Source: Alphaproteobacteria bacterium | GTDB taxonomy: Bacteria; Pseudomonadota; Alphaproteobacteria; BNTO01 | Assembly: GCA_025996655.1 (NCBI GenBank) | Contig: BNTO01000015.1 | Location: 1-10,547, forward strand | Direction of reading: 5' to 3' | DNA: 10,547 nucleotides | Shown here: piece by piece, positions 236 through 10,252 of the stretch | How the letters are laid out: every line of letters begins with the position of its first letter | Numbering within the stretch: position 1 is the first letter of the stretch | The notes under the pieces: generated by a model | What the model was told of the DNA's origin: nothing | Databases searched by the model: none | Seen by the model: the letters and a program-made list of their open reading frames with translations, nothing else | Translations under genes and position numbers: made by a program

Positions 236-264
236 TTGACAAACGTGCCTTACTGTACTACTAT
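236..264 (+). promoter_or_regulatory. Sigma-70-type promoter of the trpR-like/ABC importer operon
   Basis: A perfect -35 box TTGACA (236-241) is followed after exactly 17 bases by TACTAT (259-264), a 4/6 match to the -10 consensus. A second AT-rich hexamer, TATGAT (262-267), overlaps it at a spacing of 20. Transcription would start near 271, about 25 bases before the first start codon at 297. This leaves a very short leader with no room for an attenuator or riboswitch, so control should act at initiation. Confidence 0.7.
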
Positions 265-272
265 GATAATAC
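255..272 (+). promoter_or_regulatory. Candidate TrpR-type operator overlapping the -10 box
   Basis: The 18-bp sequence GTACTACTATGATAATAC is an imperfect dyad (12 of 18 positions symmetric). The E. coli TrpR operator form is GNACT, eight bases, AGTNC. Here the left half GTACT (255-259) matches fully and the right half AATAC (268-272) differs at one base, with the spacing exact. The site covers the -10 box and the likely transcription start, where a bound repressor would block RNA polymerase. The gene just downstream encodes a TrpR-superfamily protein, so autoregulation is the natural reading. Binding is inferred and the core CTAG of E. coli sites is not kept. Confidence 0.5.
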
Positions 273-296
273 AAAGAGACAAAACAAGAGCGCCGC

Positions 297-614
297 ATGG
301 CAAGCAAGTCTTTTAAAAGTGATCTTGTTGTTGATCTTTGTGAAGCCTTTCTGGACCTAGAAACTGTCGAAGACGTCTATGTCTTTTTGATGGATCTTTG
401 CACCCCAAAGGAATTAAAAGATTTTGCCGAGCGGTGGGCGGTATGCCAACTGATCGCCCAAAACAAAACCTACCGCGCCATTCGCGCCGAAACAGGCGTC
501 AGCCTCACAACCATTGGGCGCGTCGCTCGGTTTTTGCAAAGTGAGCCCTACGGGGGTTATAAAAGAGTTTTAAAAAAAAGGGAGAAAAAATATGAGAAAT
601 TTTTTGAAAAATAA
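297..614 (+). CDS. TrpR-superfamily (YerC/YecD-type) transcriptional regulator
   Basis: This 105-residue protein has the length and all-helical layout of the TrpR superfamily. The segment from LCTPKELKDFAER (about 34-46) through a helix-turn-helix at about 59-80 (YRAIRAETGVSLTTIGRVAR) is closer to the YerC/YecD branch than to E. coli TrpR. Residues that bind the tryptophan corepressor in E. coli TrpR (Thr44, Arg54, Arg84) have counterparts at Thr36, Arg46 and Arg75, although YerC proteins also tend to keep these positions. In the recognition helix, E. coli Ile79, Ala80 and Thr83 correspond to Leu, Thr and Gly here. The gene is first in a four-gene operon and its last 23 bases overlap the next gene. 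It probably represses its own operon through the dyad at 255-272 when the imported amino acid is plentiful. The start is the first ATG after the promoter, with only a weak ribosome site (AAGAG). Superfamily membership is secure; ligand and target are inferred. Confidence 0.88.
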   Translation: MASKSFKSDLVVDLCEAFLDLETVEDVYVFLMDLCTPKELKDFAERWAVCQLIAQNKTYRAIRAETGVSLTTIGRVARFLQSEPYGGYKRVLKKREKKYEKFFEK

Positions 615-1584
615 AAGAACAAAAGGTGCGGCAACCTTTGCGGTGGCCTGCCTTGTAGGTGTGTGTTTTTTCGAAACAGGGTGCGCTAAAAAGACACCGG
701 CGTTTAAAGTTTGTATCAACAAAATTGTCGATCACGAAGCTCTGAACGAAACCGCGCGGGGCATTCAAGAAACGCTTCAGGCCGAGTTCCAAAAACTCAA
801 TATTCCGCTTGACGTCAAAATTGAATCCGCCCAAGGAAACGCCGCCACTGCTCAGCAAATTACCGACAAGTTTGTGAGCCAAAAGGCCGATTTTATTGTG
901 GGTATCGGAACATTGGCCGCGCAAAGTTTTTTGCGTTGCGCTCAAAACGGGAAAACGCGGTTTGTGTTTAGCTCTGTCACTGACCCTAAAGCGGCCGGCT
1001 TACTGTCGAACACCACGTCCATTATAGGCGTCTCGAATTTTATTGCTTTGGAGCCACAAATTGATCTGTTTGTGGAGATTCAGCCGGGCCTTAAGCGGTT
1101 GGGCTTTTTGTACAATCCTAGCGAAGCCAATTCGATCACGCTGCTTCGGCGCCTCGAGCCGATCTTGGCGAAAAGGGGAATACAACTTGTTCCGCAAGTC
1201 GCTGCGAAAATGCTTGATGTCCCTGCCGCCGTAAGCAATTTGGCGAAAAAGGTTGACGTCCTTTTTATTAGCAATGACAATACAGCGCTCAGCGCCCTGC
1301 CTAGCATTATCTCCATGGCCAACAAAAGCAAAACCCCTGTGTATGTGAGCGATACGGATATTGTTCCTAAAGGCGCCGTGGCGGCGCTTGGGCCGAATCA
1401 ATATCAAATAGGTGTGCAAACCGCCAAGCTCATCTTAAAACAGCGGCTTTCGGCGACGAATCTCGCGACGCGCGTGGAGTACCCGCAAGAAACGCTTCTT
1501 GTCCTCAACCAAAAAGCGGCCAAAACATGCGCTTTAACTTTTCCGGATGCGCTTTTGAAACGGGCGCAAAAGGTTTTGCCATGA
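592..1584 (+). CDS. ABC transporter substrate-binding lipoprotein, TrpX type (ABC_sub_bind, PF04392 family)
   Basis: The 330-residue protein starts with a basic segment and a hydrophobic stretch (about 12-27) ending in FFETGC, so it is probably exported and lipidated at Cys31. Glu at -3 is unusual for a lipobox. The rest is a two-lobed periplasmic binding protein. Typical marks of the TrpX/PF04392 family are VGIGTLAAQ (about 103-111), FSSVTDP (about 126-132), LGFLYNPSEANS in mid-protein and ALGPNQYQIGVQTAKL near the C-terminus. It would capture the ligand and deliver it to the permease and ATPase encoded next. A strong ribosome site, AAGGGAG (579-585), lies just before ATG 592, and the start overlaps the regulator gene by 23 bases, suggesting translational coupling. 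Proteins of this family include tryptophan/tyrosine binders, and the TrpR-like neighbour favours tryptophan. The substrate remains inference. Confidence 0.85.
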   Translation: MRNFLKNKRTKGAATFAVACLVGVCFFETGCAKKTPAFKVCINKIVDHEALNETARGIQETLQAEFQKLNIPLDVKIESAQGNAATAQQITDKFVSQKADFIVGIGTLAAQSFLRCAQNGKTRFVFSSVTDPKAAGLLSNTTSIIGVSNFIALEPQIDLFVEIQPGLKRLGFLYNPSEANSITLLRRLEPILAKRGIQLVPQVAAKMLDVPAAVSNLAKKVDVLFISNDNTALSALPSIISMANKSKTPVYVSDTDIVPKGAVAALGPNQYQIGVQTAKLILKQRLSATNLATRVEYPQETLLVLNQKAAKTCALTFPDALLKRAQKVLP

Positions 1585-2417
1585 TGGGGGGGGCCGAAAT
1601 TGCCACGTGCGTTGATTTAGGCCTTCTACAAGGATTCCTTGGCGTCGCTCTTTTTTTAACTTTGCGCGTCCTTAACTTCACCGACTTAACCTGCGAAGGA
1701 AGTTTTGTGTTTGGGGCATGCACCGCGAGCGTCCTCCTCACAAAAGGCTACCCCATTCCCGTCAGCCTTGCCGCCTCCTTTTTGGCCGGCAGCGTAGCGG
1801 GCGCCGTCACGGGCGTCCTCAATATCTTTTTGAAAGTGAAAGACATTTTGGCGGGAATTCTTGTCGCCTTTATGTTCTATTCCATCAACCTCCGCGTTCT
1901 CAAAGACGCGCCCAATATAACGCTTCCGGAGGGGGCGCAACTTACCGGCTTGTACATTTTTTGTGCGGCTACCGTTCTTATGTTGGGCTACATGTTAAGG
2001 ACGGATTGGGGTCTCGCCTTGCGCGCCGTTGGGCAAAATCCCCAGCTCGCGCAATTATCCGGCATTTCTGTCAAAAAAATGACGTTCCTCGGTTTGGCCC
2101 TCAGCAACGCGCTGATAGGCTTGGCGGGGAGTTTGACGAGCCTAAGGCAAGGCTTTTGCGATGTTAGCAGCGGAACGGGCCTTATTATTGTCGGGCTGGC
2201 CTCGGTTGTGATTGGGGAAAAAATCATGCCCTTCCAAAATTTATTTCTCCAGTTGCTGGGCTGCTTCGCGGGGGCCGTCCTCTATCGCTTTTTTATGGGG
2301 TTAGCGCTGGAACTCGAATGCCTCAACCTCAAATCAAGTGACGTCAACCTCATCTCGGGCCTTCTCATTCTGAGCGTGATGGCTCTCCGCAAAAGGAGGC
2401 GACTATGTTGCACTTAG
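1581..2417 (+). CDS. ABC transporter permease, LivH/BPD_transp_2 type (TrpY-like)
   Basis: A 278-residue membrane protein with about eight hydrophobic segments. Its cytoplasmic coupling loop reads GLALRAVGQNPQLAQLSGIS, followed by a helix LALSNALIGLAGSL; both are hallmarks of the LivH-like branched-chain permease family that pairs with TrpX-type binding proteins. It would form the channel as a homodimer. ATG 1581 is chosen because ATGA overlaps the TGA stop of the binding-protein gene and AAAAGG lies 7 bases upstream. An in-frame ATG at 1527 lies inside the previous gene with no ribosome site and would add a non-family N-terminus. A second ATG directly follows at 1584. Codons 2-5 contain a run of eight G (1586-1593), a possible slippage site. 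The 3' end overlaps the ATPase gene by 13 bases. Confidence 0.86.
   Translation: MMGGAEIATCVDLGLLQGFLGVALFLTLRVLNFTDLTCEGSFVFGACTASVLLTKGYPIPVSLAASFLAGSVAGAVTGVLNIFLKVKDILAGILVAFMFYSINLRVLKDAPNITLPEGAQLTGLYIFCAATVLMLGYMLRTDWGLALRAVGQNPQLAQLSGISVKKMTFLGLALSNALIGLAGSLTSLRQGFCDVSSGTGLIIVGLASVVIGEKIMPFQNLFLQLLGCFAGAVLYRFFMGLALELECLNLKSSDVNLISGLLILSVMALRKRRRLCCT
2391..2399 (+). promoter_or_regulatory. Strong ribosome binding site of the ABC ATPase gene
   Basis: AAAAGGAGG sits inside the end of the permease gene, five bases before ATG 2405. It is the best ribosome site in the operon and fixes the start of the ATPase gene. The ATPase may be translated independently of the upstream genes as well as by coupling. 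Confidence 0.75.
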
Positions 2418-3194: not shown

Positions 3195-3935
3195 TCAGTC
3201 TAGATTCATGCTGCTTTGCCACTCTGCGAGTGCTTTCTCTTTTTTTATTAACAATTCTTCCAAATCGGCAATTTGTTTATCTCTCTCCTCTAACTTCTTA
3301 CTTAAGTAAGCTTCCCGTTCGGCGCTTATTTTAGGTTTTTTCGCGATTTCCTCCCGCGACGAGTCTTTTTCCCTTTCCGCGCTGTCCAGCCTCTCATTTA
3401 AAATCGTATTTTCCAACTTCGTGCTCTCCAATTGTCCCTCCAGCTTCTTATATTTCGTGTCTAGACTACTCAGTTTTCTGTCAGTAGCCTTTTGTCCTTT
3501 AACGGCTCTATCACGCGTTTCGTTAGCTTCCGCTAGGCTTATGGAGATCGATTCTTTCTCTTTCTCTCGGTTTAGGACCAGATCTTCTAAGTCTCTTACT
3601 CTCTTTTTCAGGTTCGCATTTTCTTCTTCGAGCCCTTTTTTTGATTCCTCTGTTGAATCGAGTTTCTGTTGGCTTTCTGCGAGAGCAGACGCTTGTGCTT
3701 TCGAAACTAGCTTCGCTGAGGTCATCATCGTTTCATAATTTTGTATAATAGCCGCTGAGGTTTGTAGTTGTCCTCGCACTGTTTCAATACGTTCTTGGAC
3801 TATTGTCAAAGTATTAGTGGCCGCGTTATACCTCCAATTTGTCTCGTTGTTCTTTTTAGCTTCCCCCCCCCCAGTACTCGTTGCTAAAAAAAGAAAACAA
3901 AGGCCTGCTGCTTTGGATAGATTGTGTGAAAACAT
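3195..3935 (-). CDS. Predicted exported coiled-coil protein of unknown function
   Basis: From the ATG at 3935 this gives 246 residues. The N-terminus MFSHNLSKAAGLCFLFLATS looks like a signal peptide (basic, then hydrophobic, then small residues). Almost all the rest is Glu/Lys/Gln/Leu-rich helix with heptad character, for example LEEENANLKKRVRDLEDLV and LEERDKQIADLEELLIKKE, so a long coiled coil outside the cytoplasmic membrane is likely. No enzyme or binding motif is seen. ATG 3935 is preferred because CAGG lies about 9 bases upstream. Starts at 3980 (ATG) and 3992 (TTG) are in frame but have no ribosome site and would place a second hydrophobic stretch in front. Right after the signal, three Gly codons and the next G form a run of ten G (C10 at 3863-3872 on the plus strand). 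A one-base slip there would shift the frame before the whole coiled coil. It converges on the ABC operon and diverges from the next gene. Confidence 0.68.
   Translation of the reverse strand: MFSHNLSKAAGLCFLFLATSTGGGEAKKNNETNWRYNAATNTLTIVQERIETVRGQLQTSAAIIQNYETMMTSAKLVSKAQASALAESQQKLDSTEESKKGLEEENANLKKRVRDLEDLVLNREKEKESISISLAEANETRDRAVKGQKATDRKLSSLDTKYKKLEGQLESTKLENTILNERLDSAEREKDSSREEIAKKPKISAEREAYLSKKLEERDKQIADLEELLIKKEKALAEWQSSMNLD
3863..3872 (-). repeat. G10 homopolymer tract in the coding strand of the coiled-coil gene
   Basis: Ten consecutive C on the plus strand (G on the coding strand) encode Gly-Gly-Gly plus the first base of Glu in the sequence ATSTGGGEAKK. Tracts of this length are prone to slipped-strand mispairing. 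The position, early in an exported protein, is typical of contingency loci. As sequenced the gene is in frame. Confidence 0.8.
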
Positions 3936-4109
3936 AAAAAATAAACCTGTGAAATAGAGAGAACACCTTAATATGAACATGATAGTGAGCAAGTTGCAAG
4001 AAAAAAGTTACATGCCCACAATAGACATGCGGCGAAAGTCCTTTTTTGTTAGCAACTTCTCCAAGCAAAAATCGTGTTTTGCAGCAGGTCTAAATAAGTA
4101 AAATTATGA

Positions 4110-4159: not shown

Positions 4160-4710
4160 ATGTTCTTATGTGTGCACGAGCATACCCTTAAGTATATTTT
4201 TGACTCCGAATTGAGCGAAAACGACGTTTGGGCTATCGCCCTTCAGGCCAAAGAGAAATTTGAAAAAAATGGGAGTGCGATAAAGAAATTTTCGAAAAGG
4301 GCAGGGGGGCTGAGCGAACAAGACGAGGCGCAGATTCTTTCTGTTCTGAAGTTCGGACGAAGCATGGGCGTTCCTTGTGGGGCGTCCTTTTTGGCACAAC
4401 TTAACGGCCTTCATTCCTTTCTTGAGGACGCGGAAAAGCGGGTGAAACAGGAGGCCCAACCTGCCTCCATTGCGCACACCCTTCAAGGCCTTTCGCTTTT
4501 ACACGATGGTGTCGATCTCTACAAACTGTGGCTTACGAACTTCTTCATGCCTGTGCGTCCGCTTGCAAAACAGCCCTTACTAAGGGACTCACGTTGTCTG
4601 CGCAGCACAAAAAAAGCCTAGAGAACGTGTCCTCTTTTCTTTGGGATGCAACGACCTATATGTCTCCACAAACGGAGTATGCACAGTATAGAGATTTGGA
4701 AAAGAAATAG
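4160..4710 (+). pseudogene. Hypothetical helical protein gene, interrupted by a frameshift
   Basis: The reading frame from ATG 4160 encodes a soluble, largely helical protein (MFLCVHEHTLKYIFDSELSE...LLHDGVDLYKL). After about codon 122 (near 4525) this frame turns into low-quality sequence and stops at 4621. A different frame continues from about 4528 (AYELLHACASACKTALTKG...) to a TAG at 4708-4710, and it again looks like a natural amphipathic helical sequence. One missing base near 4524-4530 would join them into a protein of about 183 residues. No slippery heptamer is seen at the join, so programmed frameshifting is unlikely; gene decay or a sequencing error are the options. A weak GAG ribosome site lies 9 bases before ATG 4160. 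No family is recognised. The stop codon coincides with the edge of a miniature mobile element. Confidence 0.6.
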
Positions 4711-9172: not shown

Positions 9173-10252
9173 TTATTTCTTTGCGCCGGCGAGGCTGTCT
9201 TTAATAAATGTCTGCCATTTTTCAAATCGTTCTTTTGCATCGGGATATTGTTCAAAAATAGCGTTCTTCTGCTCGTTAATGATCGCCATCAAATTTGTTA
9301 CATCGACTATAATATTTTTAATTTTCAAGTTTTCCGCCAAGACCGTAACCTTGAGCGGTTCTGTCTTATCTTTTTGCTGCATAACAATCGTATATTTTTC
9401 AAAGCTCCCTCTGCTGGCGTCTTTTTTGATAGACTTTGTTTCGTAATCTTTGACAAGAGGCAAAACCCCGGCGATGTTCGCGGCAATAAAACCTGAAAAA
9501 TTCTTTCGATAAGAATCCTTGGTTTCTCGAGACTCTCCTTTAAAAGCAGAAGCTAAGATGTCATCTACGGCCGCATTTGTTTCGATCCAGTCTGCGCTTC
9601 CCTGGGGCGTTAGAGTTTTTAATTCTTCAATGAGTGCCTGAATGTGTTTTTCTTTTTCTGCATCACTTTGCGGCGGCGTTTTTTTTTGAGCCGAATCTTC
9701 CTTGGGTTTCTTTTCAGCCTCTGGGGCTGTTTCTTTTAGGACAGGCTCTTTCTGTTCCGTTTCTTGGGGAGCTTCTTCCTTTGATTCAGATTTCTCTTCC
9801 GTCTCTGGTGCGGCAGCTTCTTTCTTTTCAGAGTCGTCCGTCTTAAGGGGAGAGGGCTCTTCTTTTACTTCAGCCTCTGAAGCTTTTTCTTCCTGCGCAT
9901 CATTTTTTTCTTCTTCTTTGTTTGCTTCTTTGAGAGAGAGCCCTTTTTGCCCCTCAGGAGTCGCTGCTTCGGGCGTCGTCTCATCAACATTTTCGGCTTT
10001 CTCTTCAGCTTCAACAGGAGCAACTTCCGTGGGAGCGGTCTCCTCAGACGCTTCCTCTTTTTCCTCTTTCTTTTCTGGAGCAGAAACGATAGCATCGCTG
10101 TCTGGGGCGTTTTTTTTCTCCGAAGAAGCGGGAGCGGGCGAATCTACTGGCTCTTCCTTAGGAGCCGCTGGTTTTTTGGAGTTCTCGCAAGAAACAAGAA
10201 AGAACGCAGAACCCAAAAGAAAAAATTTTAGCAAAGAAGAATGATCACTCAT
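9173..10252 (-). CDS. Lipoprotein with long acidic linker and possible MlaC-like C-terminal domain
   Basis: From ATG 10252 this gives 359 residues. A signal peptide (LLKFFLLGSAFFLVSC) ends in a good lipobox, LVSC, with lipidated Cys22. Residues 23-200 are a low-complexity linker of Glu, Lys, Ala, Pro, Ser and Thr, probably disordered and strongly charged. Residues about 201-359 are folded: KNFSGFIAANIAGVLPLVKDY, then beta-like FEKYTIVMQQKDK, then IIVDVTNLMAIINEQKNAIF. That order resembles MlaC/Ttg2D phospholipid-shuttling proteins (PF05494), in which a helical part precedes a sheet and a final 'disc-like' DGISL-x-x-x-R segment, but the similarity is weak and the call tentative. ATG 10252 is chosen because AGGAAA lies about 6 bases upstream and the lipoprotein signal starts there; an upstream in-frame start at 10363 would abut the insertion-sequence end at 10366. 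A strong terminator follows, so the gene is probably monocistronic. The lipid-binding role is inference; linker plus domain could equally serve as a spacer and envelope binder. Confidence 0.8.
   Translation of the reverse strand: MSDHSSLLKFFLLGSAFFLVSCENSKKPAAPKEEPVDSPAPASSEKKNAPDSDAIVSAPEKKEEKEEASEETAPTEVAPVEAEEKAENVDETTPEAATPEGQKGLSLKEANKEEEKNDAQEEKASEAEVKEEPSPLKTDDSEKKEAAAPETEEKSESKEEAPQETEQKEPVLKETAPEAEKKPKEDSAQKKTPPQSDAEKEKHIQALIEELKTLTPQGSADWIETNAAVDDILASAFKGESRETKDSYRKNFSGFIAANIAGVLPLVKDYETKSIKKDASRGSFEKYTIVMQQKDKTEPLKVTVLAENLKIKNIIVDVTNLMAIINEQKNAIFEQYPDAKERFEKWQTFIKDSLAGAKK

Follow-up and report, generated by a model that had tools for sequence, protein, structure and literature searches.

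We propose that a 20-bp imperfect palindrome at positions 254-273 of the window is the operator of a HisR-family repressor encoded at 297-614, and that the pair provides histidine-responsive autorepression of a histidine importer. We put the probability of this reading at roughly 83%. The window is the whole stretch of DNA that was analysed (10,547 nucleotides); it is contig C15 of a 1.23-Mb host genome in 318 contigs that is 92% complete. Its first 3.1 kb hold a plus-strand operon of four tightly packed genes, in which adjacent genes share a few bases of overlap. The family of the regulator, the conservation of the operator, its overlap with the promoter and the order of the genes are all apparent from sequence comparison. 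The features are as follows.

236..241, plus strand: -35 hexamer TTGACA, read from the sequence
254..273: predicted HisR-type operator, 20 bp, TGTACTACTATGATAATACA, an imperfect palindrome; the 255-272 element predicted earlier is its core
259..264, plus strand: -10 hexamer TACTAT, within the operator at operator positions 6-11
297..614, plus strand: hisR, predicted YerC/YecD-family repressor of the TrpR superfamily, 105 aa; PF01371, 74.2 bits
592..1584, plus strand: hisX-type substrate-binding protein, 330 aa; PF04392, 213 bits; 23-nt overlap with hisR
1581..2417, plus strand: hisY-type ABC permease; PF02653, 88 bits
2405..3073, plus strand: hisZ*-type ABC ATPase, 222 aa; PF00005, 86.7 bits

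These Pfam matches confirm the operon anatomy given in the original prediction, namely a TrpR-family gene with genes for a substrate-binding protein, a permease and an ATPase. The permease gene likely starts at 1581, as judged from an ATGA overlap, although its open reading frame opens at 1527. In the host genome, the hisR product is the sole match to PF01371 and the hisX-type protein the sole match to PF04392. The placement of the regulator in the YerC/YecD branch also held: the protein passes TIGR02531 (64.6 bits against a cut-off of 42.2) and fails the TrpR equivalog model TIGR01321 (26.2 bits against 67.25). The ligand of this branch had been called mostly unsettled; however, YerC is treated as HisR in a 2022 paper (PMC9413887, partial text), in which DNA binding by HisR of Ruminococcus gnavus depends on L-histidine. 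An Rfam search of the window for RNA leader regulation gave no gathering-level match. Elsewhere in the window, a 153-aa open reading frame without a family match is followed by an overlapping one in another frame (4528-4710), and the two (4160-4710) may be a single gene that is frameshifted or decaying. Two predicted proteins on the minus strand (3195-3992 and 9173-10252) lack a Pfam match; one looks coiled-coil-like by eye, with a weak SMC match in NCBIfam, and the other is rich in Lys and Glu.

The -35 and -10 hexamers are separated by 17 bp and carry 10 of 12 consensus bases, in agreement with the earlier description of a dyad at 255-272 over the -10 box of a promoter with a perfect -35. 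The 18-mer GTACTACTATGATAATAC on which that description was built is indeed present, but it is one base short at each end: the full dyad spans 20 bp, ends in TGTA...TACA and has half-sites that agree at 7 of 10 positions. The likeness to the TrpR operator then cited as evidence is not significant by itself. The "nine of ten" positions said to match the TrpR frame included two N, so that 7 of 8 defined positions match, and one-mismatch matches to the frame occur three times in the window against 2.13 expected, with three or more in 69 of 200 shuffles. A TrpR-frame match on its own is at chance level. The published 20-bp proteobacterial HisR motif, TGTAnTArnnnnyTnTTACA (PMC9413887, partial text), agrees with the site at 11 of 14 defined positions, a score equalled in 17 of 100 shuffles, and the TrpR consensus agrees at 12 of 16. 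Since these two fits are about equal, the DNA alone leaves the ligand undecided. A pattern for the lineage, written after the window and its relatives had been seen, matches without mismatch only at 254-273, on both strands, and this is its unique zero-mismatch match in the host genome; matches with up to three mismatches are expected 0.01 times in the window.

Because the published HisR consensus was weak by itself, we used a matrix built from relatives, and the significance of the site comes from this phylogenetic footprinting rather than from a match to a single consensus. Relatives of the regulator were taken from the order and class of the window and from genome contigs, as the best 80 of 535, so the sample leans toward near relatives of the window. 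The top-scoring of these (L023) lies on a contig labelled Holosporales bacterium. After removal of duplicate or shorter views (L001-L011, L013 and L022) and of L012, which at 20.8 bits is below the Pfam cut-off, 89 loci were retained. A gene for the binding-protein type follows the regulator in 31 of them, 49 have hisG in the fetched flanks and 9 have neither. In five of the transporter-type loci (L024, L026, L042, L044 and L094) a match was lacking for the permease, the ATPase or both; all but L042 stop near a contig end at that point. The hisG-type loci comprise 41 assigned by clustering of the next open reading frame, for which hisG identity was checked by TIGR00070 on one (L019), and 8 assigned by tblastn, among them L047 with hisG on the opposite strand. 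The nine loci with neither (L021, L028, L048, L053, L056, L069, L078, L092 and L101) were searched for hisG alone among the his genes. In two of them, L092 and L101 from Candidatus Midichloria, hisR stands without hisG or the importer type in the fetched flanks (about 0.6 kb downstream for L101) and without a convincing operator, and the regulator is possibly an orphan. A tree of this short protein, in which 8 of 85 inner branches were starred, serves as background only, since most forks are poorly supported.

Each locus was scored with the matrix of the others, and 200 dinucleotide-shuffled versions of its region served as background; the matrix was seeded from a consensus typed after the result of scoring with the published one had been seen. 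The window site reached 26.3 bits, at p ≤ 0.005, which is the lowest value that 200 shuffles allow. Regulator-upstream sites were detected at p ≤ 0.01 in 31/31 transporter-type loci, thus providing the conservation upstream of orthologous operons that had been proposed as a check of the prediction. The hisG-type loci gave a site in 40 of the 41 tested (the first 41 only; L029 was missed), a count that takes in several near-identical, low-scoring Caulobacteraceae sites. Among the 31, the site of L034 scores only 9.4 bits and those of L016, L024 and L043 lie at -229, -135 and -9 from the called start; low scores and odd positions of this kind may be due to misassigned start codons or to false sites. 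As a control on real sequence, 620 segments of the same loci yielded none that reached 26 bits and one that reached 13, a score attained by 30 of the 31 regulator-upstream regions, most of which had trained the matrix. The symmetrised consensus of the other 30 transporter-type sites is TGTACTATCATGATAGTACA.

The position of the site relative to the promoter recurs as well. When the search is confined to hexamers at the site, 22 of 30 loci have their best -10 hexamer at operator positions 6-11. TTGAC[AT] starts 17-19 bp ahead of the site in 13 of the 30 loci whose upstream sequence is long enough, the window among them, compared with 0.11 expected. This recurring offset and spacing make promoter occlusion the natural mechanism. 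With the site conserved and the -10 offset repeated, an operator over the operon's own promoter, and hence autoregulation of an uptake operon, is still the natural reading, as had been proposed at the outset, and 254-273 is very probably the operator bound by the protein that the first gene of the operon encodes. The geometry is shared with E. coli TrpR, whose operator also overlaps the -10 box. The likeness extends to the family (PF01371), to the spacing of the half-sites and to autoregulation (PMC9413887, partial text), which is proposed here too. By contrast, the window operon codes for a hisX-type importer and its regulator lies below the TrpR equivalog cut-off.

We infer that HisR binds the site and represses the operon, with histidine as both co-repressor and cargo. 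When histidine is plentiful in the cell, a histidine-bound HisR dimer would sit on 254-273, and because the palindrome holds the -10 box, the start of RNA polymerase would be blocked. The genes for HisR, the binding protein, the permease and the ATPase would then fall silent as a unit. Under histidine shortage, HisR would be released and the importer made. The histidine step of this scheme draws on family membership, on an experiment in another phylum and on a gammaproteobacterial hisG operator: histidine dependence is known from a Firmicute (R. gnavus), and the window regulator belongs to another branch.

The gammaproteobacterium is Wohlfahrtiimonas chitiniclastica, in which HisR control extends to the his operon as well as a hisR-hisXYZ* operon; in most HisR-bearing Proteobacteria a his operon has hisR as its first gene (PMC9413887, partial text). 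The W. chitiniclastica genome contains a single PF01371 match, which heads the transporter operon, and sites with up to three mismatches at two places, one ahead of the hisR-transporter operon, the other ahead of hisG. The latter lies 37 bp ahead of the called start of hisG, which was identified by TIGR00070 at 186 bits. It is the closest reference operator, identical to the window operator at 18 of 20 positions, and a TrpR-like operator of the TGTACTA type thus stands on a histidine gene. The window operon shares with hisR-hisXYZ* the regulator family, the gene order and a 20-bp TGTA...TACA operator upstream of hisR. W. chitiniclastica, however, keeps its second site before hisG, whereas the host genome has no second convincing site and yielded no histidinol dehydrogenase.

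The sole further near-match in the host genome, G000:C104:1914-1933 (L119:1501-1520), has two mismatches on one strand and three on the other; a minus-strand open reading frame without a Pfam match probably starts about 78 bp downstream of it. A reversed control pattern gave 1 and 2 matches in the same genome, which places this near-match at chance level and makes a second regulon member there unlikely. A genome of the same family (G004, 80% complete) supplied a natural control. It has an importer operon of the Asp/Gln type described below (L140, G004:C90) but no PF01371 match, and no operator was found in the 2.3 kb up to the binding-protein gene, where the best consensus match was 12/20. An importer without HisR that is also without the operator is, as one case, only suggestive.

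We then turn to the binding protein. In its family, specificity is set by two positions, with Ala/Gln in tryptophan binders, Ala/Tyr in phenylalanine binders and Glu/Tyr in tyrosine binders (PMC6816091, partial text). The pair in the window protein is Asp254/Gln270. Across the 31 transporter-type loci, Asp is present in all and Gln in 30 (His in L025), and other homologues (best 119 of 903) have Asp/Gln in 118 cases and Asn/Gln in one. Asp254 alone was rejected as a mark of histidine: four of six binding proteins from other settings, hand-picked from 60 records listed of 77, also have Asp, with Tyr at the second position. Among the proteins compared, the combination of Asp and Gln is seen only in the HisR-linked set and in proteins closely homologous to that set. 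It differs from the TrpX pair, yet from sequence it is no proof of a histidine cargo. Importers with a PF04392-like protein and an Asp/Tyr pocket were also seen beside a kynureninase gene on an Aminobacter plasmid (L146) and beside homogentisate-pathway genes on a Variovorax plasmid (L144); knowing what these carry would help to calibrate the pocket. With a PF04392-type protein, permease and ATPase together with hisR and a predicted operator, the window operon fits the hisXYZ* importer. In other Proteobacteria, a HisXYZ histidine importer has been predicted under the regulator HutC (PMC5343134, partial text).

The original prediction had named tryptophan as the signal, and a tryptophan-sensing regulator acting at a TrpR-type operator to repress a tryptophan importer would account for the 12/16 fit to the TrpR consensus. 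The operon also resembles TrpXYZ (S. pneumoniae SP1069, S. suis TrpX) in its PF04392-type protein, permease and ATPase. Gln270 is common to the tryptophan binder SP1069 (PMC6816091, partial text), and the TrpX model NF041285 is the binding protein's one NCBIfam match. That match, however, is under the cut-off (199 bits of 390), as is that of the W. chitiniclastica protein (262), and the first pocket position is Asp rather than Ala; counted against histidine in turn, Asp at this position also occurs in the protein beside kynureninase, a tryptophan-breakdown gene. S. suis TrpX has a reported T-box (PMC9382623, partial text), in place of which the window operon has a predicted repressor site. For the regulator, the prediction had pointed to Thr36, Arg46 and Arg75 as counterparts of tryptophan-binding residues. 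All three are retained, and our alignment places them opposite what we take to be Thr44, Arg54 and Arg84 of TrpR. They are no pointer to tryptophan, since each is kept in 49/49 hisG-linked HisR proteins; among the 31 transporter-linked proteins, Thr is found in 30 and both Arg in all. The position of TrpR Gly85, on the other hand, is Val in 80/80 proteins, window included. Residue 88 of wild-type TrpR is Ser; its position is Phe in 73 of the 80, including the window, and the aligned TrpR entry has Tyr there. With the TrpR and TrpX models both failed, a twin of the operator upstream of hisG in W. chitiniclastica, with its single PF01371 match, and L-histidine required by R. gnavus HisR (PMC9413887, partial text), we consider tryptophan an unlikely signal.

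Synthesis markers leave both importers equally plausible as a need. Histidinol dehydrogenase was found in none of nine genomes of the order, host included (74-92% complete), and phosphoribosylanthranilate isomerase in none of the same nine, so that both amino acids are probably needed from outside and the need for a tryptophan importer would be no smaller. It is quite improbable that the HisR repressor and its importer switched to tryptophan while the HisR traits and operator were kept, in this small-genome, largely host-associated branch; if true, a tryptophan-sensing member would exist in a histidine-sensing family, in genomes without a found marker of either synthesis. Very unlikely is a HisR-like regulator that works with its importer on a different amino acid, for instance tyrosine or phenylalanine. 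HisR paralogues have moved to tyrosine genes, with HisR2 proposed next to tyrosine decarboxylase genes of Paenibacillus, Carnobacterium and Enterococcus (PMC9413887, partial text), and the binding protein has relatives whose ligand is tyrosine or phenylalanine (PMC6816091, partial text). The Asp/Gln pair, however, is neither the Glu/Tyr of the tyrosine binder nor the Ala/Tyr of the phenylalanine binder, and W. chitiniclastica links the same regulator and Asp/Gln binding-protein type to hisG. That the dyad arose by chance, with the operon unregulated or regulated elsewhere, would suit the chance-level TrpR-frame match and the weak score of the published HisR consensus, but is scarcely credible given the 31 leave-one-out detections, the repeated promoter geometry and the rarity of the lineage pattern, post hoc as that pattern was.

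We therefore retain histidine-responsive autorepression by HisR, and with it a plausible tryptophan annotation is moved to histidine. The system is of a known kind, HisR with a hisXYZ* importer, and what is new may be its spread in Holosporales-like genomes. The hisR-hisXYZ* layout is given for one proteobacterial species (PMC9413887, partial text); here the regulator and this binding-protein type occur together at 31 loci at least, with permease and ATPase also matched in 26, and 15 of the 25 named records among the 31 are labelled Holosporales, Holosporaceae, Holospora or Alphaproteobacteria bacterium. A literature search, thin on subscription journals, found no report of this spread, and neither histidine nor tryptophan appears as a word in the main text of the papers searched on Holosporales and their kin. 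The operator itself is clean and testable, with the -10 box carried by one half. As no histidinol dehydrogenase was found in the 92%-complete host genome, control of the importer probably matches histidine uptake to need. In six other genomes with transporter-type loci (completeness not given), histidinol dehydrogenase was found in W. chitiniclastica alone, a distribution consistent with HisR having been turned to uptake once synthesis was lost. Collectively, these data suggest that bacteria which had lost histidine synthesis retained its repressor and re-used it to control uptake.
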